DNA of 64,000 bases from Sphagnum magellanicum. Taxonomy: Eukaryota > Streptophyta > Sphagnopsida > Sphagnales > Sphagnaceae. Every line of letters starts with the position of its first letter. Positions within the stretch are counted from its first letter, which is position 1. The notes under the pieces were generated by a model, which was not told where the DNA came from, searched no databases, and was given only the letters and a program-made list of their open reading frames with translations. The stretch spans positions 10,230,001-10,294,000 of the forward strand of contig CM038919.1 in NCBI GenBank assembly GCA_021904315.1. The letters run 5' to 3'. Made by a program: the position numbers and the translations under genes. Of this stretch, positions 6,646-62,539 are shown piece after piece.

Positions 6646-8794
6646 GTACATATATGTGTTGTGCAGTTAATATTTGAGTTTTTAATAACTTGTTTTGGTA
6701 TTTAAAAATTGGGAAATCAAAGAACCTTGGGTTACAATTATATGGAAATTTTAAGAATCAAAGAACATGCAGTTTTAGTTTTATCTAAAAAACCTCAAAG
6801 AATTGGTGGTTGTTTACAAAATGACCAACAATGTTTAGAACATTATTTGAGTGGGTCTTAGATGTTTTTGGAATTGTGATTACATACTAGTTCTCACATT
6901 TTTATATATTTGTAGTTATATATCGGAACTGATTATTTGACTTTTTAAAAGAACCACCATTAGGGTAGAGAGGCCCATCACCAAACACATGCCAGTCATC
7001 GAACACCCACCTAGTGTGGCAAACTGCATATGTTAGAACAAAAGTGTTCATTGTTTAGCCTATCACCAAACATTTCATTGAAAATAATTTTGTTCTAAGT
7101 TTTTCATATTGTTGATTGTTCATCAAGTTTTAGTGTTTGATATTAGGGATTTTGGTGGCCATATTTGTAAAAAGTTTGAATAAATTTACAAGGGACCACT
7201 TTGGAGATGGTGATTAGCTAAATTTCATAATGGAAGGTTGGAAATGTGATGTATTTTCATGTTTGGTTATAGGGGGAAAATGCATTAGTTTTTCGAAGGC
7301 CCCATGTTTGGTGTGGAAATAAAAGTTTGGTGATAATCGATTGGATTGAATAGTACAAGGAGAAAAAGTTTGGTGATGGGTATGCAAGTCATGTTAAATA
7401 TCACACAACTAACCATAAACAAGGATCACAGTTTACAAGAATCAAATGGATATTCAAATCTTACACATTAATTGGGGAAGTTTTTTTTAATTTTCCCCCA
7501 ATTTTGTGCACATCCCCTTCTTGTCAAAAATTAAAAGCATCAAATCCACAAGGCAATAATGCTACAAATATGCATACACAATTCATTTTTACAAAAATAT
7601 TAGTAAGACTTTTTCACTATGTTAAAGCTTCCAATTTGTGAAAAAGCTAACCTTAAGTCATTCATCAAGGTTTTGAGAGCATATGGGTTAAAACAGTAGA
7701 GGTCAAGTAACATACAAGGGGTAAAGATCTCTAGATCAGAAACACAAGTCCTAGTAGATCAACAAGAACAAACTTTGTGATTTAGAGTAGCTAAAGAAAA
7801 GTCTCAAGAGTTAAATCAAAAAATTGCACACATTAGACTAACTAAAGAGGGGCTACAAAAGCTTGATCATCAATAATCAAGTCCTAGTGTTGTCAAAGAA
7901 GAGAAAAAAAACCAAGATTCAAGGGTGGATGCAAGGGGGTAACTAGGAAAGGATGCAATAGATGAACTTTGCAATCAAAAGTTCAAGAAGTTTTTATACT
8001 ATTGCTAGATGCAAAGTTCTATAGTTCCTAGGTACATTATAGGTAGCCATAAGAGAGGTTGATTTTTTCAAATTCCAAGATGTCGTAATTTGTTATACAC
8101 ACCTACTGCCTACACACAAACAACTAATCAAAATTTACTATGGTTAGACTTTGAGGAGTTTTATGCATTGATCACAAGTTTCAAACAACTAGAGGCATAT
8201 GCATTTCACATTTACCATGATCTTTCATATTTTCTTTAGAGTTGGTCAAAATATAGAAGATTCAAGTTTGTACTTCTCGTAGGGTTAAACCAAACACCCC
8301 CAACTTGTTAGAAGTTGGGGCCTAGGGGCTCTAAATCATGATGTTGTTGAATGTGCCTCATAGGAGGCAAAGTGGATTGGATGATTAGCCAAGCCAACAC
8401 AAGGAAAATGTCCCACCATCTTTTGGATCATAGGAACCAACAACCAAACAATGAAAAGTCAATATATCCAATCCTATCAACATTAGAAGCAAATGGAGCA
8501 ACCGGACATTGGAGGAGGCCATGGATGCAATTGGGAAAGGGACAACTTCATTGAGGAAGGCAAGTAGGCATTGGAACATACCATTAACCTTGTTGTTTGA
8601 TTTTGTATGGAAAAACAAGATCTAAAAAAGTAAGACTAATAGGCGTATTAACAACAAAAGAAGATTAGGTTGTGGTTTTTTAGGTTTTAGCTTTGCAAGA
8701 TGTTGGGCTATTAATAAGCCTGTAACAATTGAAGATGAAAAATGGCAAAGCTGACCCAAACAAGGCTAACACCTTTCCAAGGAAGAATATTAAG

Positions 8795-9612
8795 TGTCAC
8801 AACCCCACTTTGGGCGAAGTGGGAGAATGTAACTCCCACTCCCAAAAGTAGAGACTTGGAGTCCTCTGGGACTCCCGAAAATTCAGAAGACGATTTGAGG
8901 GGTCAAATCTCCTTGCCTTGATGCGTTTTTTATATCAATGGAAAGCTCTTGAAGCGTAGATGTCCAAAATGGCCTCGCATTGCCCATTTGGACATCTGCA
9001 GCCCAAGTTATGGGCAAAAGAAGGGCCGGGAGTCAAACTGCCACTTTGACTCCCAACCTCTAAAAGTCGAGAATCGACCTCTCCCCGACGTCGCCTCAAG
9101 GAGTGTGACACAGCCTTGGAAAGCTCTCGACGAGAGCTCAACTTTGGTTCAGAGCTCGTCCCAATCCGAGATCGGGGCGAGGAGTTGTGGCCGTCCAAAG
9201 TCCCGGGACTCCAACTCGGGATAGTTTCGGGACTCCAACTTGGGAGTCTTGGGAAAAAAGGCCATTTAGATGTAGCCTTGACGGAGAGCTGCAGAGAATA
9301 CGATATGGGGGAAGGTGGTGGCTTCCCCCGAGTCCGGGCCGTGGTGAGTCAAGTGGTCCAAGTTGCCCGTGGCTTGTCCCAACACCCAAGGGTGTTCCCG
9401 AATGTGAACTAACCTTTTTGTGGTTGGTTTTGGATGCAGATTCGTGCTTGATCTTCTAATCCATCTTCCTAGTCTAATCTTGGGGCTTCTAGCATGCCCC
9501 TCTAACCCTCTTTAGTGCTGGAAGTCGGGAGCGCCCCTCAAGTCCCCCTTTTCTGCAACTACACATAGTTGGACCCTCAAGTGGGTTCAACCCAGGACTT
9601 GGGAGTGCGTCA
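8795..9612 (+). mobile_element. Solo LTR, copy 1, inserted in the pogo-like transposase
   Basis: This 818-bp unit starts TGTCACAACCCC and ends GTGCGTCA, the TG...CA form of an LTR. It is flanked by a perfect 5-bp duplication TTAAG (8790-8794 and 9613-9617). It is closely similar to 27764-28549 along its length and related to the inverted copy 10480-11394. No internal retroelement region is attached, so it is a solo LTR left by recombination between two LTRs. The several overlapping ORFs of 80-98 codons in it lie in matching places in the other copy and are LTR shadows. It is markedly richer in GC than the surroundings. Confidence 0.85.
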
Positions 9613-10479
9613 TTAAGGACCTTTTGGTGGTACTAATTTAAGCGTAAACATCTTGAGCTTAACATTTGTCAAACTGAAGGATTGGGTATCGATAAAGTTC
9701 AAAGATTAACAATCCAATCATGCCAAAATTTCTACCAAAATTTGTAATCCATGTACAACAAACATAATTATGTTTAGATCATATTGGTAAAGTTCAAAGA
9801 TTAACAATCCAATCATGTTAAACTTTCTACCAAAACTTGCAATCCATGTACAAGAAGCATAATTATGTTTAGATCATATCTAGAATTCTAATGAAACATG
9901 CATCCAAGCATGAAGATAGCTAGGAGCCAAGGTTTTGGCAAAATGAGGTTTTCAGCAAATGTATAACACCATTCCTAAGTCCCATGGAATGGTTGATTAT
10001 TAACTATGTTGTTAATACAGCAATGACAACATTGTAAGGGTTTTACATTTTCAAAGGAGAAATGATACCAAATGACTACATTCAACTTTACAAATTAAGG
10101 ACTTGTATGGCTATGAAGTCAAAAGCGCGGATGATTACATGTTTTTTCAAAGAATTCCTTTCTTTCTTCAATAGGTCAATACTAGATGGAATCTTTCTAA
10201 TAAATAAACATTTACTTATCTTGGATGGCCATGGATCCATGCCGTTTTTGAGGCAATTGAGGAAGCATAAACATTTAGGTTAGATTTGGTTACCTTACCT
10301 TCACATACATCCCATGCATTGTAGCCTTTGGATGTAGCATGTTTCAAATCTTCCAAGATTGTTTTTAAAAAGGAAAGAGACATAACAATGATCAACATGA
10401 ATTACATCGAACTAGAAAAATGAGTTTTGGTAGGATGGGTGGCCAAAGCACTAGACCAAACATTTTCAAGAAAAAATAT

Positions 10480-11394
10480 TGACACACCCCCAAGCTTCTT
10501 GATGGACTCAACTATGAGTCCAAAGGTGAAGACATCGGAAGGAGAAGGAGTTGGGGCGCATTCTGTGGCTCGGAGCATTTCGGGGGTAGAAGGGCGTGCT
10601 GGAACTCTGGGATGAGATTAGGAAGATTTACAAGTAATTCACTTAGTCACATGGACTTGCACAAACCAAACAACAAGTTGGTTAATGTGTAGTTGGAACA
10701 CTTTGGTGCACGAACGAGCCACAGGCAAACATAGACTCACAAGAAGCACCACGACCCGAACTTGGGGGAAGCCACCACCTTCCCCCTTATAGTACATTCT
10801 GTGCATGGCCATGGGGCCAGCACCCAAATGACATTTTGTCCTAGGACTCCCAAGTGGGAGTTTTGAAATTCTCGAAATTGGGATTCTAATAACTTTGGAG
10901 GCCCATAATTTTTTGTGCATGCTTTCGATTGAGGTGAGGTTTAAACCAAAGCTGTAGCCTTCATTGAGAAATTTTCAATGGTATGTGGCACGCCACTTTC
11001 ACATAAGGAAATCGGGACGATTCTTGACTTTTAGTGGTTGGGAGTCAAATTGACAATTTGACTTTTGGCCCTTCTTTTGGTCATAACTTGTGTTTTAAGT
11101 GTTCAAATGAGTCATGCAAGCTCATTTTAGACATTTACATTCTAAGATATTTTTAATGATATAAGGAACTTCTCAATCCAATGAGTTTTGGCCCGTACAA
11201 TTGCCCTTTGAAAATTCTGAAGTCCATTGGGATTCTAACTCCCAAAATGGGAGCTCATTTGGGAGTGTGGGGGTTCATTCCCTCTCACTTTCTTGCACTC
11301 TTGGGAGCATGAAATGTGATTCTTGAACTCATTCTTGGCCCGCACCTTCACAAGCCCATGCCTTGGTCGCGAACCCAAGGTTAGGGTTGCAATA
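10480..11394 (-). mobile_element. Solo LTR, copy 2, inverted, in the pogo-like transposase
   Basis: Read on the minus strand, this 915-bp unit runs from TATTGCAACCC (a worn TGTCGCAACCCC) to GGGGTGTGTCA. It is flanked by a perfect 5-bp duplication AATAT (10475-10479 and 11395-11399). It aligns with copies 8795-9612 and 27764-28549 through the 'gggggaaggtggtggcttcccc' block and the terminal blocks, but is much more diverged. The terminal changes are G-to-A and C-to-T, the usual signature of methylated-cytosine decay. It is the oldest of the three copies by appearance. Confidence 0.75.
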
Positions 11395-12429
11395 AATATT
11401 ATCTCAAGGTTCAAAAGTACAAGGATTTTGCCATTGGAACCTAAAGCCATGGATGAAAGAAATCTTAAAAGCTTATACATAATAGTGAATTAGCTTGGAG
11501 AAGAGCAAGATGATGATTATTAATCAAATCAAGATGAGGATGGGGAGATGGAATGGGCAAAACAAAATGTTGTAGAAGAGCTGATCAACATAGCTTCAAC
11601 TATAGAACCGACAACTATGTGAATCTATGCTTAATAGTGTGGTTCAAGATCAACCTAAGTATTATGTGAACATGAATATGGTTGAAACCTTGGAGTAGTC
11701 TTCAATAGATGTGGGAGTAGAATGCAAAATCCTAAAAACTTAGGAAGCATTGGTAGGCACCAACTTGTTGTCATTACCACATTTCCCTGCAAAAAGGACT
11801 AATGGGAAAGAACTATTAGTTGATGATTCGCAAAGTCATGTTGTGACTTTAGAAGAACACTTGACCATTGTGCATCAAAAGGCAATGGATAAAGAGGTGG
11901 CAAAACATATTATAAAAACAAGAAAGAAGGAGAAGCAAAACAAGTAGGTTAGAAAGGTAACAATAATAATGATTGTAGTAAAATGGGCAACTAAAAAGGA
12001 ACTTACAAGACAATAACGAGCTACCTTCATTACAACTTGGTCATCTGTAGCAATAAAAAAAACATGAAATAAATTTCATTAGAATTTCCAAGAAGGAATG
12101 TGAGTTCACCTTTTTGGACATAGGGATGTGAACTTGGGTTGGACAATAGATCTTCAAAAATCGGTTCAATAATAAGCTACGGTTCAAAGGCAAAAGAGGA
12201 AGGGAATTATAACATTTCTACAATAACTTGATGAAACAAACATTTAAGAGGAGTAAAAAGGAGGAGCAAGGTTTAGTGTTTAGTGAATTAAAATAGGATA
12301 TAGAATAACAAGGGGATAAGCTTAAAATTGATGTAATAATAATAACTAGGGTAGAAACTTGGTTGAGTAAAAGCTTTAGGAATAATAGTTTAGTGGTTCA
12401 ACGACCAATAGGAACTCCATGGTTCCAAG

Positions 12430-13150
12430 TTCAAAAGCACCAACTGAAGATCACTAGGAACTCATGGGGGCTTGATCCACTAGGAAAAGGATTAGCACCA
12501 AGACAAAACCATCATAAACACAAGAGAAAGGGGGTGGGGTTTGATTCATCGGAAATAACACCAAGAGGAGATGAAAAACACCAAGAAGAGGACCATCACA
12601 AACACAAGAATGAGGGGGTTTAGTTTATCAGGAATAACATTCAAAGGAGATGAACAATACTAGGAAGAGGATTAACACCAAGAAAGGACCGCCATAAACA
12701 CTAGAAAGAGGGGGGGTTCGATTCATTAGGAGTAACACCTATAGGAGATGAAGAACATAAAAAAGAGGACCATCATTAAGAGAAGACCATCACAAACATA
12801 AGAAAGAGGTGGGGGTTCAATTCGTCAAGAATAGCATTGGGAGGAGATGAACAACACCAAGAAGAAGACCAACATGAACACAAAAGAGGGGGGTTTGAAT
12901 TCATCTAAAGTAGTAAGGAGATGAAGAACACCAAAAAAAGAACCAACACTAAGAAGAGGACCATTGTGAACACTAGAAAGAGGGGGGTTCAATTCATCTA
13001 GAACTGCACCAAGGAGAGGAGTAGCACCAAGAAAAGCTTAAGAACACTAAGAAAAGGACCAACATTGGGAACATACATGGAGAAGATCAAAAACAATAGG
13101 AGGAGAGGAGTAGCATTGAGAAAGGACCATCATAAACACCACCATAATAT
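12430..13150 (+). repeat. Imperfect tandem repeat, units of about 78-99 bp
   Basis: At least six units contain a G-rich run followed by TTCAATTCATC or a variant. The markers fall near 12541, 12619, 12717, 12816, 12894 and 12988, giving steps of 78, 98, 99, 78 and 94 bp. Between markers, words such as 'aacaccaagaagagg', 'accatcacaaacac' and 'gaggagatgaa' recur. The array lies between the transposase C-terminus and the right end of the pogo-like element. It is purine-rich on the plus strand. The ORF at 12363-12623 is a product of this low-complexity repeat, not a gene. Confidence 0.7.
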
Positions 13151-14099
13151 TAAGGAACTTCAATCCACCACATGATGATAATTTCAATAATGATCATGAA
13201 ATTGCGAAGTGCACCAACACTTGTAATAACAAAACACTTGGAGTTAATATAGATTTTCACAAATCTTGGGAAGTTCTATTGCACGAACTTGTATTTCAAG
13301 AGGGAATGCCTCCAACATGCTTTATGCATGTGTCCATGAACAACAATAAAACTCAAGGAAAATTAGCGACAAAAGTCAAGTAGGAGAACTTCAACATTGA
13401 GAACATTCGACATGCTCAAAACACATGTCCACGAGTAAAAGTGAAACTCAAGAGAAACTAGAGAAAGGAGCTGAATGAGATCTTTGTCCCGCCTGAACAT
13501 CAACAAAAGCATGACAGGAAGATAACGGGAGGAAAGAGGAGAGGAACAAAGGGAAAGGGTTTAGGGTTTTGGAGCAATGCCACATGGGAGAACATTCAAA
13601 TTTAGGGTTTAGCATATCTTTAAAGTATCGATCACCAAATAAAATGTTGCCCTATTTTGGGTGTTGATATCAACCATTGAGTAAAGGTGTTTGTTGTTTC
13701 CAAGGATGATGATCGGTTTGAAGATGAAAATGTTTGGTGATGGCATGGATTGGTGACATGTGGCAAAATTAATATGTGCATTTACCGAGTTTGCATTGCT
13801 TGAAGATAGGTCTAGAAGTTGGTTGGTAAAATTTGATTTTGATGCAATGAGGCCGAGAGCTACCAAAAGATCTTTTGCATTTATAGTCCAAATCCAATGA
13901 TCTAAAGGGCAATAGGTGCACAATGATCTTTTCTACAATCCATATTTGGACCCAAGAGGCAACCAAGGTTGGGTTCGATAAGATGGTTCATCTGACTTTT
14001 TAAGTGTACTATGACCGGCCTCTCTACCCTATGTATTGTTGAGAACCACTACTAGTTATGATTTTCCATTTATAATAACTGCCCAACATTGGTACTTAC

Positions 14100-19696: not shown

Positions 19697-20789
19697 TGTG
19701 ACCGAACAATAGGTCACCCCACTGGTGTGAACACAACATATTTTTGAGGGTTGCTTTCTGTTTTATTAGCCATCATTTTTGCAGCCAAAATCTCTCCATT
19801 ACTGTTGCAGATAAATGCATGGGGAGGCTTTTTCTTTTGGTAGGGGTGTTATGGAGTGCAGGAAGGAGGCGGTGCGAATGATGGTGAGGCATGGAGCTGT
19901 ATTGATGAGGGGAGGTGGAAGGAAGGCGGCAACAGGACGGAAGGAGATGGTGAGCTGATGGCTGCGAAGGTGGGGATGGACGAACAGGTAATGCAGATGT
20001 GAGATAGGAGGAGAGTTGTTTTAGAGAGCTGTAGAGAGCGGTAGAGAGCCGTTTTTCTTTGGAGCAGAACTTGGCTGGTTGTTGTAATTTTTCCGCTGCA
20101 CCAGCAACTTGGCCAGGTAGCTTTGTAAAGGACTCATGAAAGGTTGGCTATGGTAGGAGTGAGCACCATAGGTCAAGGGGAAATCCTAAAGGTGCATAGA
20201 ATGAGTGTGTCGAGTGAGAATGCAGAAAGGATTTGAGATCAACAGAGCTGCTGATCATTCTTATATGAGAGTTAGTCTCTTTGAGTACGAGTGGCAAGTG
20301 TGGTACAAACTGTCCAGAGTTAGGTGTTTTTAGAGTGCAATTTGGACTCGAGGGTAATCAGGTCATAGGTCTTTGGTCCAACAGAGTGAAGAAAGGCATG
20401 CATTGTAGCATTTTGTGGGGGATCGGGTTAGAAGCTCAAAGGGTCGAGTGAACACCGAGAGCTCTGTCCTCAAAGGCCAGACCTGTATTAATGTTTGATT
20501 TTTGATGTATACTCTGGAGCCAGAAGTATTGTGCTCTCTGGAGATTTTTATGAATGGCAAGGTGCAAGTTTTGAATTCGGTTTTTCTGTTCTGCTGATCT
20601 GTGAGTGCATGAGTTGTTCCTGTCCAAAGATCAGTGAATGCATATGGAAATATTCTGAGATGAGTTTGGAGAGAAAGGGGTCAGAAAGAGTGGTTTGTCT
20701 CAGAAGATCAGAAGGGAGAACGCTTTGATCAGGCTCGTACTAGTGGTCAAATTCTTTGTTTGGTCTCGTCACCCTCTCTTTTGGTATCA
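19697..20789 (+). repeat. 5' LTR of the gypsy element
   Basis: This 1093-bp repeat is matched by the 3' LTR once the 786-bp solo LTR in the latter is removed. It starts TGTGACC and its end GGTATCA corresponds to GGTTACA in the 3' copy. It carries G-rich, purine-rich segments around 19850-20050 and the 'agagagcggtagagagccg' repeat. I did not find a convincing TATA box. Minus-strand ORFs in this LTR recur in the 3' LTR and are not genes. Confidence 0.85.
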
Positions 20790-20793
20790 AAGC
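20782..20793 (+). other. Primer binding site-like motif (tRNA-Met type)
   Basis: TGGTATCAAAGC differs by one base from the common plant primer binding site TGGTATCAGAGC, which pairs with the 3' end of initiator tRNA-Met. It overlaps the last 8 bases of the LTR as defined by comparison with the 3' LTR, where the end reads TGGTTACA. Normally the site begins just after the LTR. Confidence 0.55.
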
Positions 20794-20859
20794 TGGTTCA
20801 GATCTGGTAGCTTCAGTAGAACTTGTGAATGTCTAGATATCATGATAACTGAGGTATCA

Positions 20860-22383
20860 TGTCTTCATCTAGTGCAGATGAGGTTGGAGTAGAAGAGTTG
20901 ACATAACACATTCATGAGCAGCGAATTGTCCTTAGGTTTGATTATCCAAGGGGGCATGATGGTCCACAACGAGGAGCGGTAATCCTACGTTTCCTGGGTT
21001 TTGGATAGTAACACTTGTAGGCGTAGACCCAGATGAAGCCCGAGTTGGAGATATCGCAGTAGAAGTAGCTCATAGTGGTTTTTATACTCAAGCTGAAGTT
21101 TGGTTGAAGGTTAGAGATGGAGCAAGGGGATGGGCGTCAACCGCAGAGTTGCAGACGCAATATTACTACACTTCGCATCTGGCATAGAGTAATGTTGTCA
21201 CTTGCTGAGAGGCCGCGTAGTGTACTTAGGGTAGGAGACGTTTGGATTCCCAAGCTTGTTGTGTCGCCTAACCATTTCGTCAGATTGTACATCTTGGTGT
21301 GGAAGATTTTTTTCAGGTTGGAGATCCTCTACTCAGGGTGGAACATAGTGGATCAAGCTTTCGCCTCATAAGCTGGAGGATATGGCGCAATTAAGAGGTA
21401 GGGTGGCAATTCCAGCAAGAATCCACAGATGAGCAAAGTTTTTTCACTTTGCCATCTGATTTTATACCTTTGAGAGTAGTAGCAAAAGGTGATTAGTCAG
21501 AATTTTCAAATTGAATCACGACTGTTCTTTTCTTTCTTCTTGAAAGCTTTAGGTTGGAGCAGGATATCTGCAGAATGACTAGTCCCCAAGGAATGGATGA
21601 ACTGTTCTAGGGGCGAGACCATGAGGACGTCAATGATTGGGTAGAGAGGTTCACCATGGCAGCTGAAGTGCAAAATCTGAATGCAGATAAGCTTTTCAAG
21701 ATTAGAAGCTGAATCTGCAAAGCAGAGCCAAGGAATGGTTTAAGAGGTTACAACCAGCACCAGCGGATGGGGCTGAGTTGAGGACTCTGATAGTGCAGAA
21801 GTATGGCGATGTTGATGCTGATGACATCAGAATGAAGCTCGATGCCATCAAGCAAGAACCCAAGGAGAGAGTTCAAAAATACTACGAACGTTTCGACAAA
21901 CTATTTCAGAAGGGCCGGATACAAGACGTTGAGCAGAAGAAGAAATTTCTGGCCAGATTGAAGCCAGAGATTCGAAAATTGTGTGTGGTGAGAACATTTA
22001 CAGACATTAAAGAATTAGTTGCTGCTACAACAGAACTTGAGAGAGTTTTGGGCGAGCTTAGGGAAACTCCTTATGAACCTCTAAGGGAGGAGCAAGAAGA
22101 GGAGACCTTGGAGACTATGATGGAGAAACAGGTCACTACGCTAAACAACTCCCTGATCAACTTCTTCAAGGGGATTGTGCATAATCCAGAAACATCATCT
22201 TCTTCCATTGCGTTTGGAGGATGCCAAATCTGCAAAGGGGGGGACCATTTGGCCACCACATGTCCGAGGTTGAATGAAGCATGGCCAAAATGTGCCAAGT
22301 GCGGTATGCCTCATAGGACAGAGAATTGTGGAATAAAATGTACCTTCTACTTAGGGTTGGGACATTCCGAACACAGATGTTAG
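20860..22383 (+). pseudogene. gag: gypsy gag (capsid/nucleocapsid), broken
   Basis: The capsid-nucleocapsid region begins either at an ATG at 20860 (MSSSSADEV, soon stopped) or at 21575. It shifts frame near 21705 and is then open through 21778-22383. Gag packages the RNA genome. The nucleocapsid part has three zinc knuckles: CQICKGGDHLATTC (Cx2Cx4Hx4C), CAKCGMPHRTENC (Cx2Cx3Hx4C), and a third in which the second Cys is Tyr (codon TAC at 22348-22350, one G-to-A step from TGC). It ends at an in-frame TAG (22381-22383); the same frame then continues into the protease, so this TAG may be a mutation in a gag-protease fusion. Confidence 0.75.
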
Positions 22384-23412
22384 AAGAAGCCCAAAGATGG
22401 GAAATCACATTCTGGAATAGCAAACTTCTTGGAGGTGTTGCTGAATGACGAAGCAGCAACCCTGCAACAGCTTAATAAGCTATGTGGGGATGAGAACCTG
22501 TTCTCTTACACCCGAGTGCCTAGAAGGAGGGTGCCGGTTGATGTAACACAAGGAGGGGCTGTGCCGACCCTTGAAGCTGTGGGAGATGGAGTAAGTGCAA
22601 GCCGGGATACCTCAGTCAGATCCAAGAATCTAGCACACTTCATAAAGGGAAAGGTATCTCTCTCACCTATGGAGACCATTCTGATGATTCTAGGGGAATT
22701 GGAACACCTTGAAAGTTTGGTGAAGCTGGCTAGGAGAAAGAGGGATTCAGAGGCGACTGAAAATCAAATGTCAGTGGTCTCTGCGATTCCAGCACCAAGG
22801 AAGATCTGCATCAACAAGACCCATAGAAGCAAAATGCTGCATTTGTTTGTGGAGATCAACAACTATGTTGTTGAAGGTCTGGTGGATACTGGAGCTTCCA
22901 TGTCTGTTGTGGCTACCGTTGTAGTTAGAGAATTGGGAATGATGCATCTCGTGACAAGGTCGAAGACTTACAAAACCGTGTCAGGAGTTGTTACACAGGC
23001 GTTGGGTCGAATTGATGAGGTACCTGTCAAGGTTGGAGGCGTACAGTGTGCCATGACCTTCATGGTCGTGGACACGGACAGTTACGATGTACTCCTGGGA
23101 TTGGATTTCTTGATGAAGATTGGAGCAGTTGTGGATGTGGAACGGGGTTTAATACAAGTAAGACACAGCCCCGAAAGCAATGTGGAGGTACTGCCTTTGA
23201 CGATGGTGAATTTGTTGTAGAGGATGAATTCCGAAGCTATGATGCACGAGGCTACGACCATCGGGAAGAACGCACACATCAAAGATGATTCTGACTGGAT
23301 ACCAGATCAGGATTGTGTGATCATGATTAAAGAAGATGATGCGTCCACCTCGGATTCGGATACAGGTATTGATGGCAGTGGGCACGGTGATTCGGACAAT
23401 TTGCACAATTGA
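22384..23412 (+). pseudogene. gypsy aspartic protease region
   Basis: This segment follows gag in the same reading frame and is open from 22384 to 23217. A retropepsin-like domain has the active-site motif LVDTGAS (Asp codon at 22885) and downstream VLLGLDFL, matching the second conserved block of retroelement proteases. The enzyme cuts the Gag-Pol polyprotein. Stops follow at 23218-23220 and 23410-23412; the stretch between is acidic (DDSDWIPDQD, then Asp/Ser-rich) and links to the polymerase region. A frameshift near 23405 moves the reading frame to that of the reverse transcriptase. Confidence 0.8.
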
Positions 23413-24755
23413 AGCAAGTTGAGTGTGAGGATGAGTTTAGAGATATTGAATTGGAGGATCTGGTGAAGTCAGAAGGGCCGCAAGAGATTTTGCAGCTGAT
23501 ACTACAAGAGCAGGTTGACGGGTTCATGGAAGAGGAAATCACAGATGCGGATGATTATGCAGACTAGATGAGATGGGTGTCTGATGCAGAGCAATGTAGA
23601 CAAGCCGTGTATGAATCCACGCATGATGTAGCTGTTCCATTGTTGCTGCAGAAACCCAGCCGAGTACACGCTTCCTCAATTCTAGCACTATTGCAAACTA
23701 TCCAAATGAGAGACGGCAACTCTGATGGTAGCCACATTGAGCAGTTGACATTTGCCAACCATTGTGAAATGGATACTAGATGGAGGGAGATTTGTCAGCG
23801 AATCAGGATTGACACCAGCTTGGAGGAAGAGAAACAAAAACAACTATGGCGAGTTTTGGAGCAGTACCAAGACGTTTTTTCTTGGAATAAGGGTGAGCTA
23901 GGTTGCTGCACTATTAGGGAACACTTTGTGGATATGCAAGGGTTCCCCCCTTGCAAAGCATCTCCTGGTCGATTATCCTACTGGGAAGAGGTAGAGGTGA
24001 AAATGCAAATTGATGTACTGGTCGAATTGGGCAAGATGAAGCCCAGTAGCTCTGAGTATGCATGTCAGGTAACTCTACTAGTGAAGAAGGATGGGAGGAG
24101 GCATTTTTGTGGCGATTATCGACCACTCAACGCACAGACACGTCGGGATTCATTTCCAATGCCACTTGTGGAAGATGTGATTAGTCAACTGGGGAACTCA
24201 TCATGGTTCACTGCCTTAGACTTGCAGTGTGGCTTCTGGCAAATTCGAATGGCTCCAAAAGACATGAAGAAAACAACTTTGATCATTAAAACCGGGTTGT
24301 ATGACTGGACAGTCATGCCATTCGGCCTCAAGAATGCAACAAGTACGTTTACTAGAACTATGTCGAAGGTCTTTAAGGACTTGGGTAGCAACTTCCTGAA
24401 GGTATTCGTTGATGACTTCAATGTGCACAGCGAAAGCTGGGAGGAGCATCTGCAACACCTGGGTATAGTCCTGTACAAACTTAAGGAAGTAAACCTCAAA
24501 CTGAACCCAAACAAGTGTTGCTTTGCTGTAAAGAGCATTACATTTCTAGGCCATGTCGTTAGTAAGGAGGGCACCAAACCGGATCCTGGCAAAATTGAGG
24601 CAGTTCTGCATTTTCCACAACCTAAGACAGTCACCAATGTCAGGTCCTTTTTAGGTCTGACAGGGTATTACCATAACTATGTTCGAGGCTATTCACAACT
24701 GGCGTTTGAGCTGACCAGAAAGGATGTTAATTTTGTGTGGGATATGGGTTGTTAA
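23413..24755 (+). pseudogene. pol: gypsy reverse transcriptase
   Basis: The polymerase domain lies mainly in the 395-codon open stretch 23568-24755; the same frame extends upstream to about 23413 past a TAG at 23565-23567. Recognisable blocks in order are FCGDYRPLN, FTALDLQCGFWQI, the MPFGLKNATSTFTR block and the catalytic FVDD box (24405-24416), with Phe instead of the more usual Tyr. They are followed by FLGHVVSKEGTKPDPGKI and the FLGLTGYYHNYV thumb/connection region. The enzyme copies element RNA into DNA in the particle. TAATAA at 24753-24758 interrupts before RNase H. The frame is unchanged beyond it, so these are point mutations. Confidence 0.9.
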
Positions 24756-25295
24756 TAAGCATTCCAGGAATTGAAGGCAGCTCTGGTTGATGCGCCTATA
24801 CTCACACGACCGAATTTCAAGAGGACCTTTTGTCTGGATGTTGACTAGTCGCCCAGGGGTGTTGGAGCAATATTGTCACAGAAAGAAGGAAGATTTGAGA
24901 AGGTGGTGGCTTATGCCAGTAAGAGCTTGACAAAAGCCCACAGAAAATTCCATCCCATGGAAGGGGAGTGCTACGCACTAATCTGGGGCATCATGCATTT
25001 CAGGCAGTACTTGCACAGGAATCATTTCATTCTGCGCACAAATCACAAACTTCTAGAGTGGCTAGCCACCGTATCCGATGCACACGGCAAGAGAGGCAAG
25101 TGGGTAGACATGTTGCAGGACTTGAGTTTCAAGATAATCCACCGACCAGGACTCAGACATACGAACGTTGATGCTTTGAGTAGGAATCTAGTTGGACCAA
25201 GCACAGATGATGATGACTTCAGTGAAGAGATCCAAGACATTGGAAATCCACTAATTGACACACCGAGAGGAGAAGGGGAGGCTCTCTTTGTTTAG
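24756..25295 (+). pseudogene. pol: gypsy RNase H
   Basis: This continues the polymerase reading frame. The first conserved Asp block, FCLDVD, is followed at once by an in-frame TAG (24846-24848) and then SPRGVGAILSQ. Later blocks read VVAYASKSLTKAHRKFHPME, ALIWGIMHFRQYL and HKLLEWLA, typical of gypsy RNase H. The HRPGLRHTNVDALSR motif closes the domain. The enzyme degrades the RNA strand of the hybrid. TAG at 25293-25295 separates it from the integrase linker. Confidence 0.85.
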
Positions 25296-26946
25296 ACTGG
25301 CAAAAAAACAGAATGGCTCGGTGTCAGGAGAAGGGACAGGGAATGTGTATAACATCAGGCGTGTTGTTTTGGCATCAACCACTATAATTATGCTGGCAGC
25401 CAGCAGTTGTATGTGGTTGACGTTATATCAGAAGAAGACCAGCCCAAGGAGCTTGTTCCATGTGAAGCAGAAGTTGCAAAGGGGGGTGAGCTTGTGCAGG
25501 ATGATAATGTGGGTGTGGTGCTGAAAAGAAGGAGGCCCCAGTACTATGACAAGCAGTAGCAATTGGAACTTGTGTTGGTAGCTCAACAACTGTTTGAATT
25601 TGGTGAACATGACTTGGTTCCTATAGGTTCCAATGAGGAGGATGAGTGGGGAGCAGACATAAGGCACCAAGACATATGGGAGGATGTACCCTGCCTGGAT
25701 TTACTGCAGGGAAGCATGTTGCCAGACACTATTGATCCTGTGGAAGCTAGGAGAGCAAGGAAGAGAGTGTTGCACTACCACTGGCAGGAGCAATCACTTT
25801 ATTTCAAGGGGTTACTTGTACCAAGATTAGAAGACCGCATGGGACTAATGGTCCGAATGCATAAGGACCTAGGGCATTCTGGAGAAGAAAGAACTCTGGC
25901 AAAGATATGTAAGAGGTACTTTTGGCACAATCAGATTGAGGATGTGAAGACTGTTGTGAAGGTATGTCAACAATGTCAGATGGTGAGAAGGATGGGGAGT
26001 ATACGCTGGGAAGATGAAGAGTTGAAGAGTATACCCATTTGTGATTTGTTTCATAGAGTGACTATGGACACTGTAGGATCGTTGCCTGAAACCAAGTCAG
26101 GAAACAAATACATTCTGGTGGCCATCGACCACTATTCTAAGTGGTACGAGGCTAAGGCCGTTGTTGATCATGGTGCTAAGACTGCGGCCAGGTTTCTGGA
26201 AGATGACATAATCTGCAGGTATGGAGTTCCCAAGTTTGTACTGACTAACAATGGTGGAGAATGGGCTGCAGAATTCGATGTTATGTGTAAAGACTATGGC
26301 ATCCAACATCAGCACACTGCACCCCAATGGCCTTAGTGTAATGGGATGGCAGAGCGTTTGATCAAGACCATCAAACACGGCATTACCGTTTTTGCTACAG
26401 CACCCGAAAGTGTAGATTGTTGGGACGAGCACCTGGCGAAGATACTGTTTGGATACAGATGTGGGATCCAGTCTAGCACTAAGTTCTCACCCTTCATGAT
26501 TTTGACTGGTCACACACCCCGTCTCAGGGCAGACAATTACCTGCATGTTCTAACTGCTATAACTGATGACGATGTTGATGTTGAAGTTGCTGCAGCACAA
26601 TTTCTACAGAAGGTGAAGCTTATAGCAAGCATCCACGAGAATGTCTTGCTCAATGTGGAACAAGCATAGAAGACACAGAAGAAGACCTATGATGGCAGAA
26701 AAGGTAAGCAGACTTTTGAAGGTCTGGTTGCACGTGAAACAATGGTGAAAATGAAGAAACCGGGAAGAAAGAAAGCTCTGGCTACAAGCTAAGAAGGCTC
26801 GTACTAATTCATTGGGCATGCAGATGGGAAAGGGAACTATGATCTTGAAGAAGGCAACATGATTTGCATCATCCAGGATGCTAATGGACATCAGTGGGAG
26901 AGATCTCGTAGGGATCTTCAAATCTATCACGTTCAACCATATTGAG
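25296..26946 (+). pseudogene. pol: gypsy integrase with GPY/F-like C-terminus
   Basis: The integrase lies in the same frame as reverse transcriptase, clearest at 25563-26336 and 26346-26669. The zinc-binding HHCC region is visible (HKDLGHSGEERTLAKICKR, then CQQCQ). In the catalytic core the first Asp is present (TMDTVG), but the second reads LTNNGGEW, where Asp has become Asn (codon AAC at 26247-26249). The Glu (MAERLIKT) is present after a TAG at 26334-26336. After another TAG (26668-26670), a decayed GPY/F-like module (EGSY, stop, FIGH) and a basic tail run to TGA near 26943-26946. The enzyme would insert the cDNA into the genome, but lacks a catalytic residue. Confidence 0.85.
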
Positions 26947-26972
26947 TGAAGTTGAGGGACTCAGCTTTTTTT

Positions 26973-26992
26973 AAGAACGGAGGGGTTACATA
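26973..26992 (+). other. Polypurine tract of the gypsy element
   Basis: AAGAACGGAGGGGTTACATA directly precedes the TGTGACC start of the 3' LTR. A purine-rich run at this place primes plus-strand synthesis in LTR retrotransposons. The last seven bases are not purine-rich. Confidence 0.6.
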
Positions 26993-28876
26993 TGTGACCA
27001 AATAATAGGTCACCCCACTCGTGTGAACACAACATATTTTTGAGGGTTGCTTTCTGTTTTATTAGCCGTCATTTTTGCAACCATAATCTCTCCATTACTA
27101 TTGCAGATAAATGCATGGGGAGGTTTTTTCTTTTGGTAGGGGTGTTATGGAGTGCAGGAAGGAGGCGGTGCGAATGATGGTGAGGCATGGAGTTGTATTG
27201 ATGAGGGGAAGTGGAAGGAAGGTGGCAACAGGACGGAAGGAGATGGTGAGCTGATGGCTGCGAAGGTGGGGACGGACGAACAAGTAATGTAGATGTGAGA
27301 CAGGAGGAGATCTGTTTTAGAGAACTGTAGAGAGCGGTAGAGAGCCGTTTTTTTTTGGAGCAAAACTTGGCTGGTTGTTGTAATTTTTCTGCTGCGCCAA
27401 CAACTTGGCCAGGTAGCTTTGTAAAGGACTCATGAAAGGTTGGCTGTGGTAGGAGTGAGCACCAGAGGTCAAGGGGAAATCCTAAAGGTGCATAGAATGA
27501 GTGTGTCGAGTGAGAATGCAGAAAGGATTTGAGATCAGTAGAGCTGCTGATCATTCTTATATGAGAGTTAGTCTCTTCGAGTAATAGTGGCAAGTGTGGT
27601 ACAAACTGTCCAGAGTTAGGTGTTTTTAGAGTGCAATTTGGACTCGAGGGTAATCAGGTCATAGGTCTTTGGTTTAGCAGAGTGAAGAAAGGCATGCATT
27701 GTAGCATTCTGTGGGGGATCGGGTTAGAGGCTCAAAGGGTCGAATGAACACCGAGAGCTCTATTGTCGCAACCCCACTTTGGGGCTAAGTGTGAGAATGC
27801 AACTCACACTCCCAAAGATGGGAAAATGGAGTCCTCCGGGACTCCCCAAAACTTAGAAGACGATTTGAGGGGTCAAATCTCCTCGCCTTGGCGCGTTCTT
27901 TATATCAATGGAAAGCTCTTGAAGCGTAGATGTCCAAAATGGCCTCGCATTGCCCATTTGGACATATGCAGCCCAAGTTATGGGCGAAAGAGGGGCCGGG
28001 AGTCAAACTACCAGTTTGACTCTTGATCACTAAAAGTCAGAAATCGACCTCTTTCCAACGTCGCTTCAAGGAGTGCGACACGGCATTAGAGCTCGTCCCG
28101 ATCCGAGTTCGAGGCGAGAAGCTATGGCCATCCAAAGTCCCGGGACTCCAACTCGGGACAATTTCGGGACTCCAACTTGGGAGTCCCGGGAAAAAGAGGC
28201 ATTTGGATGTAGCCTTGGCGGAGAGCTGTAGAGTATACTATATGGGGGAAGGTGGTGGCTTCCCTCGAGTCCGGGCCGTGGTGAGTCTTGTGTGTAAAAG
28301 TGCTCGTGGTTTGTCCCAACACCCAAGGGTGTTCCCGAATGCTAATTAACCCTCTTGTGGTTGGTTTTGGATGCAGATTCAAGCTTGATCTTCTAGTCCA
28401 TCTTCCTAGTCTAATCCCGGGACTTCTAGCATGCCCCTCTACCCCTCTTTAGTGCTGGAAGTCGGGAGCGCCCCTCAAGTCCCAACTTTCCGCAACTCAA
28501 CATAGTTGGACCTTCAAGTGGGTTCAACCCGGGACTTGGGAGTGCGTCATCTGTCCTCAAAGGCTAGACCTGTATTGATGTTTGATTTTTGATGTATACT
28601 CTGGAGCCAGAAGTATTGTGCTCTCTGGAGATTTTTATGAATGGTAAGGTGCAAGTTTTGAATTCGGCTTTTCTGTTTTGCTGATCTGTGAGTGCATGAG
28701 TTGTTCCTATCCAAAGATCAGTGAATGCATATGGAAATATTCTGAAATGAGTTTGGAGAAAAAGGGGTCAGAAAGAGTGGTCTGTCTCAGAAGATTAGAA
28801 GGGAAAACGCTCTGATCAGGCCCACACTAATGGTCAGATTCTTTGTTTGGTCTCGTCACCCTCTCTTTTGGTTACA
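26993..28876 (+). repeat. 3' LTR of the gypsy element, split by a solo LTR
   Basis: It matches the 5' LTR from TGTGACC to GGTTACA, with a 786-bp insertion at 27764-28549 flanked by TCTAT/TCTGT. Without the insertion and one target copy, its length is about 1093 bp, the same as the 5' LTR. ORFs on the minus strand here, including one of 174 codons at 27069-27593, recur in degenerate form in the 5' LTR and are shadows. Confidence 0.85.
27764..28549 (+). mobile_element. Solo LTR, copy 3, inside the gypsy 3' LTR
   Basis: TGTCGCAACCCC ... GTGCGTCA, 786 bp, is inserted in the gypsy 3' LTR between TCTAT (27759-27763) and TCTGT (28550-28554). This is a 5-bp duplication with one change; the uninterrupted 5' LTR shows TCTGT once at this point. 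It is closely similar to 8795-9612. Because it lies in one LTR only, it arrived after the gypsy element had inserted, which makes it among the youngest events in the window. Confidence 0.85.
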
Positions 28877-36845: not shown

Positions 36846-37977
36846 ACAAAGTACTTGAAAGATGTATTTCATGTTCTAACCATAACAAAAAATTTGGTCT
36901 TCGTAGGCCAAATGGTGGAACAAGGTTTATAAGTGACATTCAACCCAAATTGATGTTTTGTGGAAGACATGAAGAACCAAGGAAAATTGATTATAAAAGG
37001 GTAAGGAATGGACAAATGTTCACCTTGGATGTGAACATGCTTGAGGTGAATTCCATGTTATTCAAACATGGAAAAGGAGCTAGAGACATTGGAATATGAC
37101 ACAAGCGGGTTGGCCATGTTAATCTCCAACATCTTTAGTTAATGGAGAAACAAAATCTTGTTGGAGGTCTTCCCAAATTTGGAATAGAAGAGGTGACGTC
37201 AAAAATTTATGAAGCATGCCAATTGGGAAAGCAAGCTAGGCATCCATTCCCAACTCAAACAATTCATGTAAGTTCCAAACATTTGGAAATGATCCACTTA
37301 GATGTGTGGACTACGAAGACAAAATCCATTGAAGGATGCAAGTAATACGTGACTTTCGTTGATGACCACACAAAGAAGGTGTGGGTTTATTTCATGAAAC
37401 ACAAAGGTGAAGTGTTTCAACATTTTTTGAATTTCAAAACAGTGGTGGAAAAGGAGAAGGGTGTGAGCATCAAGTGCCTAAGGTTTGATGGAGGGGGAAA
37501 GTATTTTTCAAATGAATTCAATGAATATTTGAAGGAGCATGGAATTCAAAAAAAATACTCATGTAGTTATTCCCCACAGCAGAATGGAGTTGCTAAAAGG
37601 AAAAATAGGCACATTGTAGAAATAGCATGTGCCATGTTGAATGAAAAGAATTTGCCAAATTACTTTTGGGCTGAAGTGGTAACAACTGCAGTCTATATCA
37701 TGAATCGAACACCCACAGCGGCAGTTCATGGCATGACACCTGAAGAAAAATTCACAAGCAAGAAACCCGATGTTTCACACCTCAGAGTGTTTGGTTGCAT
37801 TACATACGTGCATGTTCCTGATGAGAAGAGATCAAAACTAGACCAAAAGCTAAGAAGTGTATTTTCATTGGATATTCCTTAAAACAAAAAGGATATAGAT
37901 GTTTCAATCCTTCCGCTCAGAAGTTACAAGTGAGTAGAGATGTTGTGTTTGATGAAATGGTTTGCTAATATTCACCA
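36846..37977 (+). pseudogene. copia integrase, catalytic Glu lost
   Basis: The pre-integrase and zinc-binding region is worn: 'HKRVGHVNLQHL' near 37100 and YEACQLGKQ, where the expected first Cys is Tyr. The core at 37142-37882 includes the first Asp (IHLDVWTTK), a TAA at 37343-37345, FVDDHTKKVWVY, and the second Asp in RFDGGGKYFSNEF. The third catalytic residue is Lys rather than Glu in NGVAKRKN (codon AAA at 37595-37597). A conserved block (PNYFWAEVVTTAVYIMNRTP) and LRVFGC follow, then a frameshift near 37855. The enzyme joins cDNA to target DNA; this copy lacks the Asp-Asp-Glu triad. Confidence 0.85.
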
Positions 37978-46849: not shown

Positions 46850-49258
46850 AAAAAACCTTGTTGTTGAAACAAAAGTTTTGGAGTTTATCCTTTGAAAATC
46901 GTAGAACATATGGTTTAAATATTCCAAGAAGGTTGCATACAAGGGGAGACGAAAGGCAATGAAATTTTATCATTATTCTAGGTTTAGATATCTATGAAAT
47001 TGTTTGGTACCAAATTGTTGGTCTCTCAAGGTCAACATACATGTTGTACAAGTCAAATAGTAAGTGAGGTTATTAGTTTCTACCTCATGGGAACAAAGGT
47101 ACACATAATTTACATATGTCAACCTGGCAAGCAAAGTCCAATGTTTAATCATTGATTGATTTGTTTGTAGATACAATGTTGCATGAAATGAAAGGGATTA
47201 GAAATGATAAACAATATGTGCAACGTTTTTTGCCTAAAACATGGAAAAGTCTACAGGAACACAATGATAAGGTGAATTGTAGTGAGTGATTAGAACTTTT
47301 CATGTTAATCTAGCAAAAAACGCCTTGCAACTACCTGGTGTTTATCATGCAAGTTTATTTTTCCAAAAATTGAAATGGATTTTTGAGTTTATATTTGGCA
47401 ACATCTATTTATTGTTGACAAGTTAATTTTTTTTGTTTCATATTTGTTGGTTGGTAGATAAGCAAGGAATTAAATAATAGAGGTATTTTTCAATTTGCTA
47501 TGAATAGGTTGAGGAAAAGACACCGTCTAAATGTCGATGTGTGAAAGTGTGGGTTTGTGTTTGCAAAGTGCATTGTTTGTGAATCCCTCAAGGATTTGAT
47601 ATCCAAATTGGGAAAGAATAACAATGAGGTTCTAGAATACGAGGCAAAGATAAGAAAACATATCTTGCAACAAGAATCATGTAGAAATTTATACCATACT
47701 CGGATGACAAAGTTAGTGCGATCAAAAGATGAATTCTTTTACATTATTCATGACAAGATGGACCACGCAAAAATTGCACTTCCAAGGTTGCAAGTGTGCA
47801 ACAAGATGATATTTGGGCTTGGACAATCACCCATTACCTTCATGGGTATGATTGCGCATGGTCACGGGGATGAAAGATATGCACAATACTCTAATGAATT
47901 GTGGCCACCCAATTTCATAATTGGGTCCTTATTGAAGCTCTTTCGGACTTTGGAGGTGGCTTTAGTTTTAAAGTGGAAATTATCACTTGAACACCCCTTA
48001 TAGAATTCATTCTTTGCACGTTTGTTGCAAGGGAAATCGTGTTGCATACGTGCATTATGTAGCACATATCAAATTGTTGGTGTGAAACCTTTGTCAAAAA
48101 AATTGTTGCTTCAAATGGATAATTACATGAAAGACAATTTAAGAATCAACATTTGTTAGCATTTTTATCATTGTTCATGGCAAGGGATGTGCTTGAAGAG
48201 GTGAAATTGGGATTCCTTGTAGTTGGCCATACACATGAAGATATAGATGGATGTTTTGGCTATTTGTCAAAAAAGTTGAGGGAGGAAAACAATTAAATTT
48301 TAGTAGATTTGATGAGGGTTTTCATGATTTCATAGGAAAGACCGTTCACTCCTCAATTGATTAAAGAGATTCCAAATTTTAAATCATGGGTTTTAGGTTG
48401 TTTGAAAGATGGCCCTAAATTGTTGGTAGGGCGTACTGATATGCATTTAAATTTTTTTTTTATTGATTTGTTAGGTTGGCTTATGATGCAATACAAAGTT
48501 TCCCCCATAGATTATGTTTGGAGTTCAATAGATGGGCCATCGATTAGATTGTGGAAAGCTAATGCAGATGGTTCACCAAAATTCCTTACTAAAGTCCCAA
48601 GCCTTGTTTCATACCGCCCAATTTGGGGCGATGATGCATTGAGGTCAATGGAGAGAGATAAGTTTATAAGTTTTGGATTATCCAAATGCAAGGATTTTTG
48701 GAAGGTGGGCGTTGTGCAAAATTCCACATATGAAATGAAAATGAAGCCGTACCTAGAGTATTGGGAAGGTATCTTGTTGTATTTGTCAAAATTGTTACCC
48801 CCTCAAAGTATGATTCTTTTGGAGGGCTTTTAGCATTCAAACAATTAGAAGTTAAATTATGCTAGGGCTTCATTGTCAATTGTGATGGATGTTGTTGACC
48901 CAAAAGATTTGATTTGAGTTCTTTATTGTGAGCCAAAAAACATGAGACCTTTAATTACATACATCCCTTTTAGAGACCTTAATGCTAGAGATTGTGTGTT
49001 TGTGTGTTTGTGAAACCACATGACCCTGATCTTGTTCCTTTCTGGATGGGAAGAATGGAAGGTGATGTTGTTAAGGATGAAGAGAGTGAATATTTTAAAA
49101 TGGTGAGAGTTCAGTGGTGGGTTCTCGTGAAAAAAAAATCAAATTTGGATGAACAACATTTGTATGAAGATTGTTGGAATGGCAAGTGGAAATGTAATTT
49201 AGCAGATCCAAAACAATGGGTTGACATTTTATCTATTCTATTCTCTTTTCTTGTTTGA

Positions 49259-58322: not shown

Positions 58323-58680
58323 TTTGTTGACATCTCATTTGTTTTATTCTCATTTCATGTTAGAAACCATGTCATAATTAGTAGCATTATAGTTTTATTA
58401 GTGCTAATCATGCAACCAAGGCCAAACAAAACCTTGATGTAGTTAATGCGGTTATAGGATTGCAATTATTATTTTGGTTTTTACTCATTCATTTTTTAAA
58501 TGCAAGTTGGTTATTAGTTAATTCGAAAGAAAAGTATTGTTGTTATTGGAATTCGTTCATCTTTCCTTAGTATGTTGGCATTTCATATGAATATGGATCT
58601 ATGCCATGTGATAGTAATTTATAGTCTTTCATTATTTTATTTTATTTCATATATAATTATGACTTGGTGCCCACTAGCTG
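58323..58680. other. No recognised feature
   Basis: AT-rich spacer between the gene fragment and the 144-bp tandem array. Confidence 0.4.
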
Positions 58681-59256
58681 TTTTAGTCCTCTCCTTTTAT
58701 TAAGTCCACATTGTATTGTCTCTTTATTTTAAAATAAAGTGCAGCCTTCTACTAGGTGGCCACCAAGTAATCCCATCAAATGTATGAAAATTGCTTTTAA
58801 ATGTTTAGATTTTAAAGTTGCATGTTTTAGTCCTCTTCTTTTACTAAGTCCACATTGTGTTATCTTTTAATGTTTTGATGAATTGCAGCCTTCTACCAAG
58901 TGGCCATTAGGTAATTTCATGAAACATATGAATTTTTTTTTCAAATGTCCAAAATTTTAAGTTACAAGTTTTGGTGCTTTCTTTTTACTAAGTGCACATT
59001 GTGTTATCTCTTAATGTTTTAATAAATTATAGCCTTCCACTTGGTGGCCACCAAGTGATCCCATCAAATGTATGAAAATTGCTTTCAAATGTTTAAATTT
59101 TAAAGTTGCAAGTTTTAGTCCTCTACTTTTATTAAATCCACAATGTGTTATCTCTTAATGTTTTGATAAATTACAACCTTTTACCAAGTGGTCACCAAGT
59201 AATCTCACAAAACGTATGAAATTTGCTTTCAAATGTCCAAAATTTTAAATTACAAG
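58681..59256 (+). repeat. Tandem array, four 144-bp units in A-B-A-B order
   Basis: Units begin at TTTTAGTCCTC or a variant at 58681, 58825, 58969 and 59113, steps of exactly 144 bp. Units 1 and 3 share 'ccatcaaatgtatgaaaattgc' and 'aaatgttta'; units 2 and 4 share 'aaacatatgaa'-type and 'caaatgtccaaaatttt' variants. The true period is therefore a 288-bp dimer. Each unit contains a near-palindrome around GGTGGCCACC. A related GGTGGCCACCAGGTGGCC lies outside the array near 59482. There is no coding capacity. Confidence 0.85.
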
Positions 59257-61883: not shown

Positions 61884-62384
61884 TCAATAACCATTGCCGC
61901 AATAGGGGCAAGGTATAGTCTTGCAGCGATGGGTATCTGGGTAGCTGAATATAGGGATGGGATGTGATTCATCTGCGTGCGACTTTTCAACAGAATTGAA
62001 CTTCCGGCCTGCATCGATCAATGGCGCCGCCTGTCGCTGACCGTAGTACATTGAGCAGGGAAATCTTGTGCCGCGGGGCAGCCGCGTGAGATCTGCAGGA
62101 ATAGCGATAAAAGACGAATAACCATCCGAGGATCCCCCTCTGCGACTACCACTGGAGTCATCGGCGCCGCCCACTTGCGGCCAATTGACAAACTCTTGCG
62201 CAACTTGAAGATTCCTGTCAGAGGCTAACACAGAAACGTGCGTGCGACCCTGACGTCGACCTCTTCTCGATGATCCGCAATAATCGCATGAAGAACCCGG
62301 AGTACACTGGCAGTTGTGCGGCGGATCACCGTAGGTAATGACCAGCATAGACTTCTTCTGAGCAGCACTAGTCATGATTGCCAT
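61884..62384 (-). CDS. Hypothetical protein, 166 codons, possible host gene
   Basis: This minus-strand ORF begins ATGGCAATCATGAC at 62384 and ends TAA at 61886-61884. It is the longest ORF outside transposon relics and lies in clearly GC-richer DNA. The translation has an N-terminal CxC...CxxC cluster (HNCQCTPGSSCDYCG), a following Arg-rich SSRRGRRQGR, a Ser/Gly-rich middle (DDSSGSRRGGSSDGYS) and a C-terminal CKTIPCPYCGNGY. Paired cysteines at both ends could bind metal. I recognise no family, see no signal peptide and no membrane segment. A TATATAAA on the same strand lies about 540 bp upstream. It may be a full single-exon gene or one exon of a longer one; chance is not excluded. Confidence 0.45.
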   Translation of the reverse strand: MAIMTSAAQKKSMLVITYGDPPHNCQCTPGSSCDYCGSSRRGRRQGRTHVSVLASDRNLQVAQEFVNWPQVGGADDSSGSRRGGSSDGYSSFIAIPADLTRLPRGTRFPCSMYYGQRQAAPLIDAGRKFNSVEKSHADESHPIPIFSYPDTHRCKTIPCPYCGNGY

Positions 62385-62539
62385 CTCGTGAGAAGGTAAT
62401 ATGGTGTATGTTGAGGATTCACAAGATATAAAAAGAGTGTTCCTGGAATCTACGAGATGACTTAAGGGAAGTGTCCACTACACAAGCTTACACAGAAACC
62501 GTATCCGGGAACCTCCAGCAATCTCACAAATGGGGAAGA

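Follow-up and report, generated by a model that had tools for sequence, protein, structure and literature searches.

Within the accessible parts of the survey by Gao et al., pogo superfamily elements are 1.2-5.2 kb long, and the Fot/Fot-like pattern combines an HTH_psq domain, a DDE_1 domain and a spacing of 35 residues from the second-last to the last catalytic residue; TAA is the target duplication of most Fot elements, most Fot/Fot-like elements carry terminal inverted repeats (TIRs) of 40-60 bp, and some members of the family have a TA duplication (PMC7386202). For land plants the same parts give Lemi only, found in 23 eudicot species and characterised by HTH_Tnp_Tc5 with or without HTH_ABP1_N (PMC7386202). 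Dupeyron et al., in the portion accessible, describe a dicot clade and a Selaginella clade of two sequences (clade 38, which falls in groups 33-40, showing DD35D), and call for more work on early plants (PMC7325037). Among the literature matches listed, we found no pogo family from bryophytes, ferns or lycophytes beyond these two papers and none that treats Sphagnum alongside pogo/mariner DNA transposons. Here we describe a 7.07-kb block at positions 6963-14029 of a stretch of 64,000 nucleotides from the moss Sphagnum magellanicum (contig CM038919.1, C13:10230001-10294000, referred to as the window), which is almost certainly one inactivated end-to-end copy of a cut-and-paste DNA transposon of the pogo superfamily.

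The block is assigned to this superfamily because a psq domain, a DDE_1 domain and TIRs with TA are all present; the cut-and-paste chemistry is presumed from family membership. Judged by published description and with no claim of Fot membership, the element resembles the Fot/Fot-like group in HTH_psq, DDE_1, the TA duplication and the 35-residue spacing (35 in the sister copy L047, 36 in the related copies L084 and L085). It differs from most of that group, as far as the accessible description goes, in having TA and a 13-bp TIR, identity between the ends stopping at 13 bp, rather than TAA and 40-60 bp, and further in its moss host and its subterminal TTTGGTGAT words. With about 5.3-6.2 kb it is also longer than the range given for the superfamily (PMC7386202). 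An early land plant as host and the DD35D of its groups connect the element with Selaginella clade 38, a comparison by description only, with two sequences reported and no ends described in the accessible portion of that paper (PMC7325037). Lemi shares the superfamily and the TA duplication, whereas the window copy carries HTH_psq. The HTH_Tnp_Tc5 transposases of the moss genome form a separate set (L075 and L079) with the Lemi pattern, L075 also having an HTH_ABP1_N match below cut-off. The moss element is to be seen as a new family within a known kind, for which an entry may already exist in some repeat database.

Ends shared by sister copies and the target duplication

The first-pass annotation, made from the letters of the window, had proposed a pogo-like transposon with perfect 13-bp TIRs adjoining TA at both ends. 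The TIRs and the TA are borne out by the sequence, and the two positions listed in Table 1 are the only exact occurrences of the 13-mer GGGTAGAGAGGCC in the window; it was not found in the literature searched. The genome search covered 438,994,042 bases in 31 contigs, and all its counts are lower bounds. The exact 13-mer was found 53 times, as opposed to 2 times for a reversed-word control, and TA plus the 13-mer with at most one mismatch 182 times, as opposed to 15 in the control.

Table 1. Features of the pogo-type element, in window coordinates.
Feature	Position	Strand	Evidence
TA, left half of target duplication	6961..6962	.	sequence; TA at 17 of 21 distinct left ends
Left 13-bp TIR, GGGTAGAGAGGCC	6963..6975	+	exact match, genome-wide counts, boundary alignments
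Left subterminal zone, four exact TTTGGTGAT words (6977-, 7062-, 7326+, 7369+)	6977..7377	.	word counts, conservation ranks
HTH_psq piece, DNA-binding	8497..8622	+	PF05225, E=1.7e-5, 24.9 bits, cut-off 20.4
Nested LTR-like insert 1, 818 bp, TG...CA, 5-bp duplication TTAAG (8790-8794, 9613-9617)	8795..9612	+	absent in L047 and L049
Transposase remnant, first part of DDE_1, LILDGHGS (D codon 10224-10226)	9615..10280	+	DDE_1 E=0.074, below cut-off
95-bp tandem duplication inside first DDE_1 remnant	9687-9876	+	repeat scans
Transposase remnant, other frame, second part of DDE_1, PLDVACF (third D codon 10331-10333)	10244..10479	+	DDE_1 E=0.0093, below cut-off
Nested LTR-like insert 2, 915 bp, opposite to insert 1, 5-bp duplication AATAT (10475-10479, 11395-11399)	10480..11394	-	absent in L047 and L049
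C-terminal tail remnants (11404-11619 and 11744-11944)	11404..11944	+	homologous to L047 and L049
Minisatellite-like internal repeat, period about 92-98, varies between copies	12486..13139	+	repeat scans, sister alignment
Right subterminal TTTGGTGAT words (13631-, 13733+)	13631..13741	.	word counts, conservation ranks
Right 13-bp TIR, complement of GGGTAGAGAGGCC	14017..14029	-	exact match, genome-wide counts, boundary alignments
TA, right half of target duplication	14030..14031	.	sequence; TA at 25 of 31 distinct right ends

A check suggested earlier was whether similarity in other copies ends at 6963 and 14029, and in most of them it stops at or near these positions. With the right end as query, read from outside to inside (best 40 of 71 candidates including the window's own), 33 of 39 non-self matches start at query positions 28-32, where TA occupies 29-30; four start 4-6 bases ahead of TA and two further inside. 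The left-end query (best 40 of 62, again including self) gave 31 of 39 non-self matches starting at positions 27-34 (TA = 31-32), with four starting 6-13 bases ahead of TA and four further inside, two of those far inside. These end matches are not necessarily separate elements; C2:26250846 and C2:26251739, for example, may both come from a single one. In the available copies, left and right ends are identical over 13 bases and then diverge, left ends running on with CATCACCAAAC and right ends mostly with GGTCATAGTAC. The TA counts of Table 1 include the window copy; three duplicate rows were removed, and for the left ends a few positions were projected from alignments starting further in.

From the 40 left and 40 right ends, 15 facing left-right pairs of 1.9-14.1 kb were obtained, the window's included, and ten of them fall in the range of 4-8 kb in which the annotation had suggested looking for inverted pairs of the 13-mer. 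The family includes size variants and internally deleted copies. L047 on C8 aligns piecewise to window positions 6961-14032 with 72-86% identity and without the two inserts of the window copy, and L048, also on C8, is a 2.3-kb derivative that lacks window positions 7337-11908. The decayed coding region would also fit an orphan transposase relic that two 13-mers happen to flank by chance; this explanation is refuted by the 53 occurrences against 2 in the control, the 39 + 39 boundary matches and the facing pairs, and its probability is negligible.

For the empty-site search, the flanks of 10 of the 15 paired copies were joined with one TA, which yielded 43 matches (best 40 of 124 candidates). 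The joined flanks of two sister copies match uninterrupted places elsewhere, so that insertion is seen at these sites. The join from C8:4783998 matches one place along its whole 242 bases, and near the junction this empty site is equally long, which is what a 2-bp duplication would give. The join from C8:5844169 lies in a dispersed repeat, and at least 19 places cross its junction, of which 10 extend 25 bases or more beyond it. A TA duplication on insertion is well supported.

The annotation had further pointed to TTTGGTGAT-like words near both ends, which holds for the exact words and not for degenerate ones. Of the eight exact words in the window, the six listed in Table 1 are found no more than about 420 bases inward of one end or the other. 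When one mismatch is allowed, the window contains 38 words compared with a mean of 40.4 in shuffles, i.e. no excess, and the signal is therefore the clustering of exact words and not their overall abundance. The same clustering was found elsewhere in the genome: just inside 19 other left ends there are 54 exact words within a total of 9,500 bases, as opposed to 1 within 28,470 bases outside, and for 29 other right ends the values are 25 within 14,500 bases and 2 within 43,490 bases. When the 452 9-mers in the first 460 bases were ranked by their presence in copies, the left sites 6977, 7062, 7326 and 7369 took ranks 16, 31, 1 and 1, and in the last 460 bases both right sites took rank 28 of 452. 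Such ranks are support, not proof, since neighbouring sites may help each other and the copies are related. We infer that the transposase binds the TTTGGTGAT words.

Transposase remnants and their position relative to the ends

A psq-type helix-turn-helix (HTH), the LILDGHGS motif and the tail follow one another on the plus strand in the order given by the annotation, with the coding sequence broken across three frames. A frameshift lies between the D codon of LILDGHGS and the third D codon, because 107 nt separate them. The profile check proposed for HTH_psq and DDE_1 gave a divided result: HTH_psq exceeds the Pfam cut-off in the window, whereas DDE_1 remains below it in the window's own pieces and exceeds it in the sister copies, with stops read through (L047, 2.9e-8; L049, 2.5e-7; L050, 1.3e-9). 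No psq match was found in the same frames of these three copies, and the two tail pieces of the window copy had no Pfam match. A tblastn search with the open reading frame (ORF) of the sister copy L085 matched window positions 9879-10274 with E=2.8e-24; a comparison of the same ORF with solved structures returned one match at chance level (E 0.59). The third catalytic residue of L047 is now Y; the catalytic-spacing pattern did not pick up L049 or L050, and the frameshift breaks the spacing in the window. Neither the window pieces nor L047, L049 and L050 gave a match to HTH_Tnp_Tc5. A single match to this domain (C13:15503449-15503619, E 5.9e-4) is directly followed by a transposase match and lies on the inner side of a right end.

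The transposase matches (best 150 of 1450 candidates, sister families included) are associated with the ends in a consistent manner. Within 8 kb of the 80 ends, 31 lie inward in the expected orientation, one inward in the wrong orientation and none outward, where a match inside a paired element may count once from each end. For psq (27 matches) the corresponding numbers are 8, 1 and 0; the psq model also matched in one of 14 control genomes (Bacillus subtilis). The DDE_1 family search (best 150 of 671 candidates) had matches in none of the 14. From this set, a transposase match falls within 7 of the 15 pairs, and the paired elements at C17:2665399-2671126 and C2:5289756-5294509 contain a psq match and then a transposase match, in the expected order. 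The 12 best-scoring DDE_1 places carry neither the ends of this family nor its DGH motif, and the two of them scanned for domains carry HTH_Tnp_Tc5.

It could be argued that the ends belong to a different superfamily (MULE, hAT or Harbinger) that captured a pogo fragment, since subterminal repeat words are present, to our knowledge not a feature of pogo elements, and since the TIR begins with GGG rather than with CAGT, the start of many pogo elements. However, the ends enclose transposase matches of a single orientation at similar distances, one empty site fits a 2-bp duplication, and the window copy is flanked by no 3-, 8- or 9-bp duplication, which makes such a capture very unlikely.

Several observations weigh against reading the block as one copy of a pogo-type element. 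Four of 21 left ends and 6 of 31 right ends lack TA, and within several elements the TIRs of the two ends differ from each other. The five empty places that were read no longer show TA, and the join of the window copy matched only its own locus among the matches listed. At C8:5844169, all four empty copies that were read have a 2-base gap within an A/T-rich stretch, only a few bases away from the junction; because of this gap, the site shows insertion and does not fix the length of the duplication. Eight of the 15 pairs, the window's among them, are without a transposase match among the best 150 of 1450 candidates, and no full-length open transposase was seen with a 252-residue query among the 150 that were scored. 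Finally, a sister family on C18 has the 13-mer and a different subterminal sequence. Taken together, the proposal of a pogo-like transposon with both ends at 6963..14029 is nevertheless supported: the two outcomes named as refuting it were both looked for and did not refute it, similarity of other copies stopping at or near these ends and HTH_psq exceeding the cut-off in the window, DDE_1 in sister copies.

Decay of the window copy and its nested insertions

The window copy of the pogo element is dead, with stops, frameshifts and two nested inserts resembling long terminal repeats (LTRs). About 1.7 kb of the 7.07-kb block consists of these two later LTR-like insertions, 8795-9612 and 10480-11394, and without them and one duplication each, 5,324 bases remain. 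Insert 1 runs TG...CA, and insert 2, read in reverse, begins with TA instead of TG and ends with CA; the two are identical at 526 of 812 aligned positions and may be solo LTRs. As they are inverted relative to each other, they could be taken to belong to the structure of the element itself, for instance as long inverted repeats in its interior. This is extremely unlikely, because L047 and L049 have neither block at the corresponding positions, the two blocks are flanked by separate 5-bp duplications, and a third copy, which shares 85% identity with insert 1, lies at 27764-28549 within the 3' LTR of a Gypsy-type element.

In the proposed course of events, the transposase would have used its psq-type HTH to recognise both the short inverted repeat and the TTTGGTGAT words that follow on its inner side, and the DDE/D catalytic domain would have excised the element and joined it into a TA, thereby duplicating it. 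After insertion, the window copy decayed through stops, frameshifts, the 95-bp tandem duplication and the two LTR-like insertions in opposite orientation.

Sister families, psq loci and other features of the window

The two C18 copies L084 and L085 (C18:13.59-14.26 Mb) encode a related transposase, with an open piece of 242/252 amino acids. Eight exact 13-mers lie within 0.7 Mb on C18, and the two copies that were read are 91-99% identical by segment, flank included. A young burst was considered for this cluster and rejected, as the copies share their flank and look like duplicated segments, not fresh insertions. The word TAGGGTAGATAGGCC, one base off the end of the family, occurs at 43 places genome-wide, as opposed to 0 for the reversed control; this set is likely a sister family.

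Since sister copies share their ends, it is now possible to define this plant transposon family, which is old and poorly described. Both ends, the target duplication, deletion derivatives and many decayed transposase relatives in one moss genome make the question of its origin, old inheritance or horizontal transfer, testable, and a library entry built from the family could be used to re-annotate orphan transposase hits. A wider and more tentative reading, to which we give slightly less than an even chance, is that early land plants hold a psq-type pogo lineage of their own apart from Lemi, with composite ends consisting of a 13-bp repeat and a conserved, transposase-bound TTTGGTGAT array. This lineage would have multiplied heavily in the present genome and given rise to families whose 13-mers differ slightly, and the host may in addition have adopted its DNA-binding half as genes with tandem psq/CENP-B-type domains.

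Separately, the loci C6:10900918-10906075 and C12:6292392-6296413 have five HTH_psq matches each (single units: L092, L091). Four of the five HTH_psq matches are followed by HTH_Tnp_Tc5 on the same strand, the open frames comprise 219-738 amino acids with no stops inside the matches, and no DDE_1 was found at these loci among the best 150 of 671 candidates. The two loci resemble a pair of paralogous host genes in which pogo/CENP-B-type DNA-binding domains are arranged in tandem.

Other features of the window lie downstream of the pogo element. The Gypsy-type LTR retrotransposon at 19697-28872 contains gag, protease, reverse transcriptase and integrase pieces between LTRs that are about 95% identical, and the LTR-like insert seen in the pogo element also interrupts its 3' LTR. 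Three of eight scanned open frames, 47545-48003, 48336-48833 and 61884-62477 (-), with 152-197 amino acids, had no Pfam match at E 0.001. Positions 37346-37882 hold a probable Copia integrase piece that includes an SH3-like retroviral polymerase domain, and the 313-bp repeat pair 34984-35296/39937-40249 (95%) may represent the LTRs of this Copia-like element. Positions 58680-59261 form a tandem array of about four copies with a period of 144 (288).

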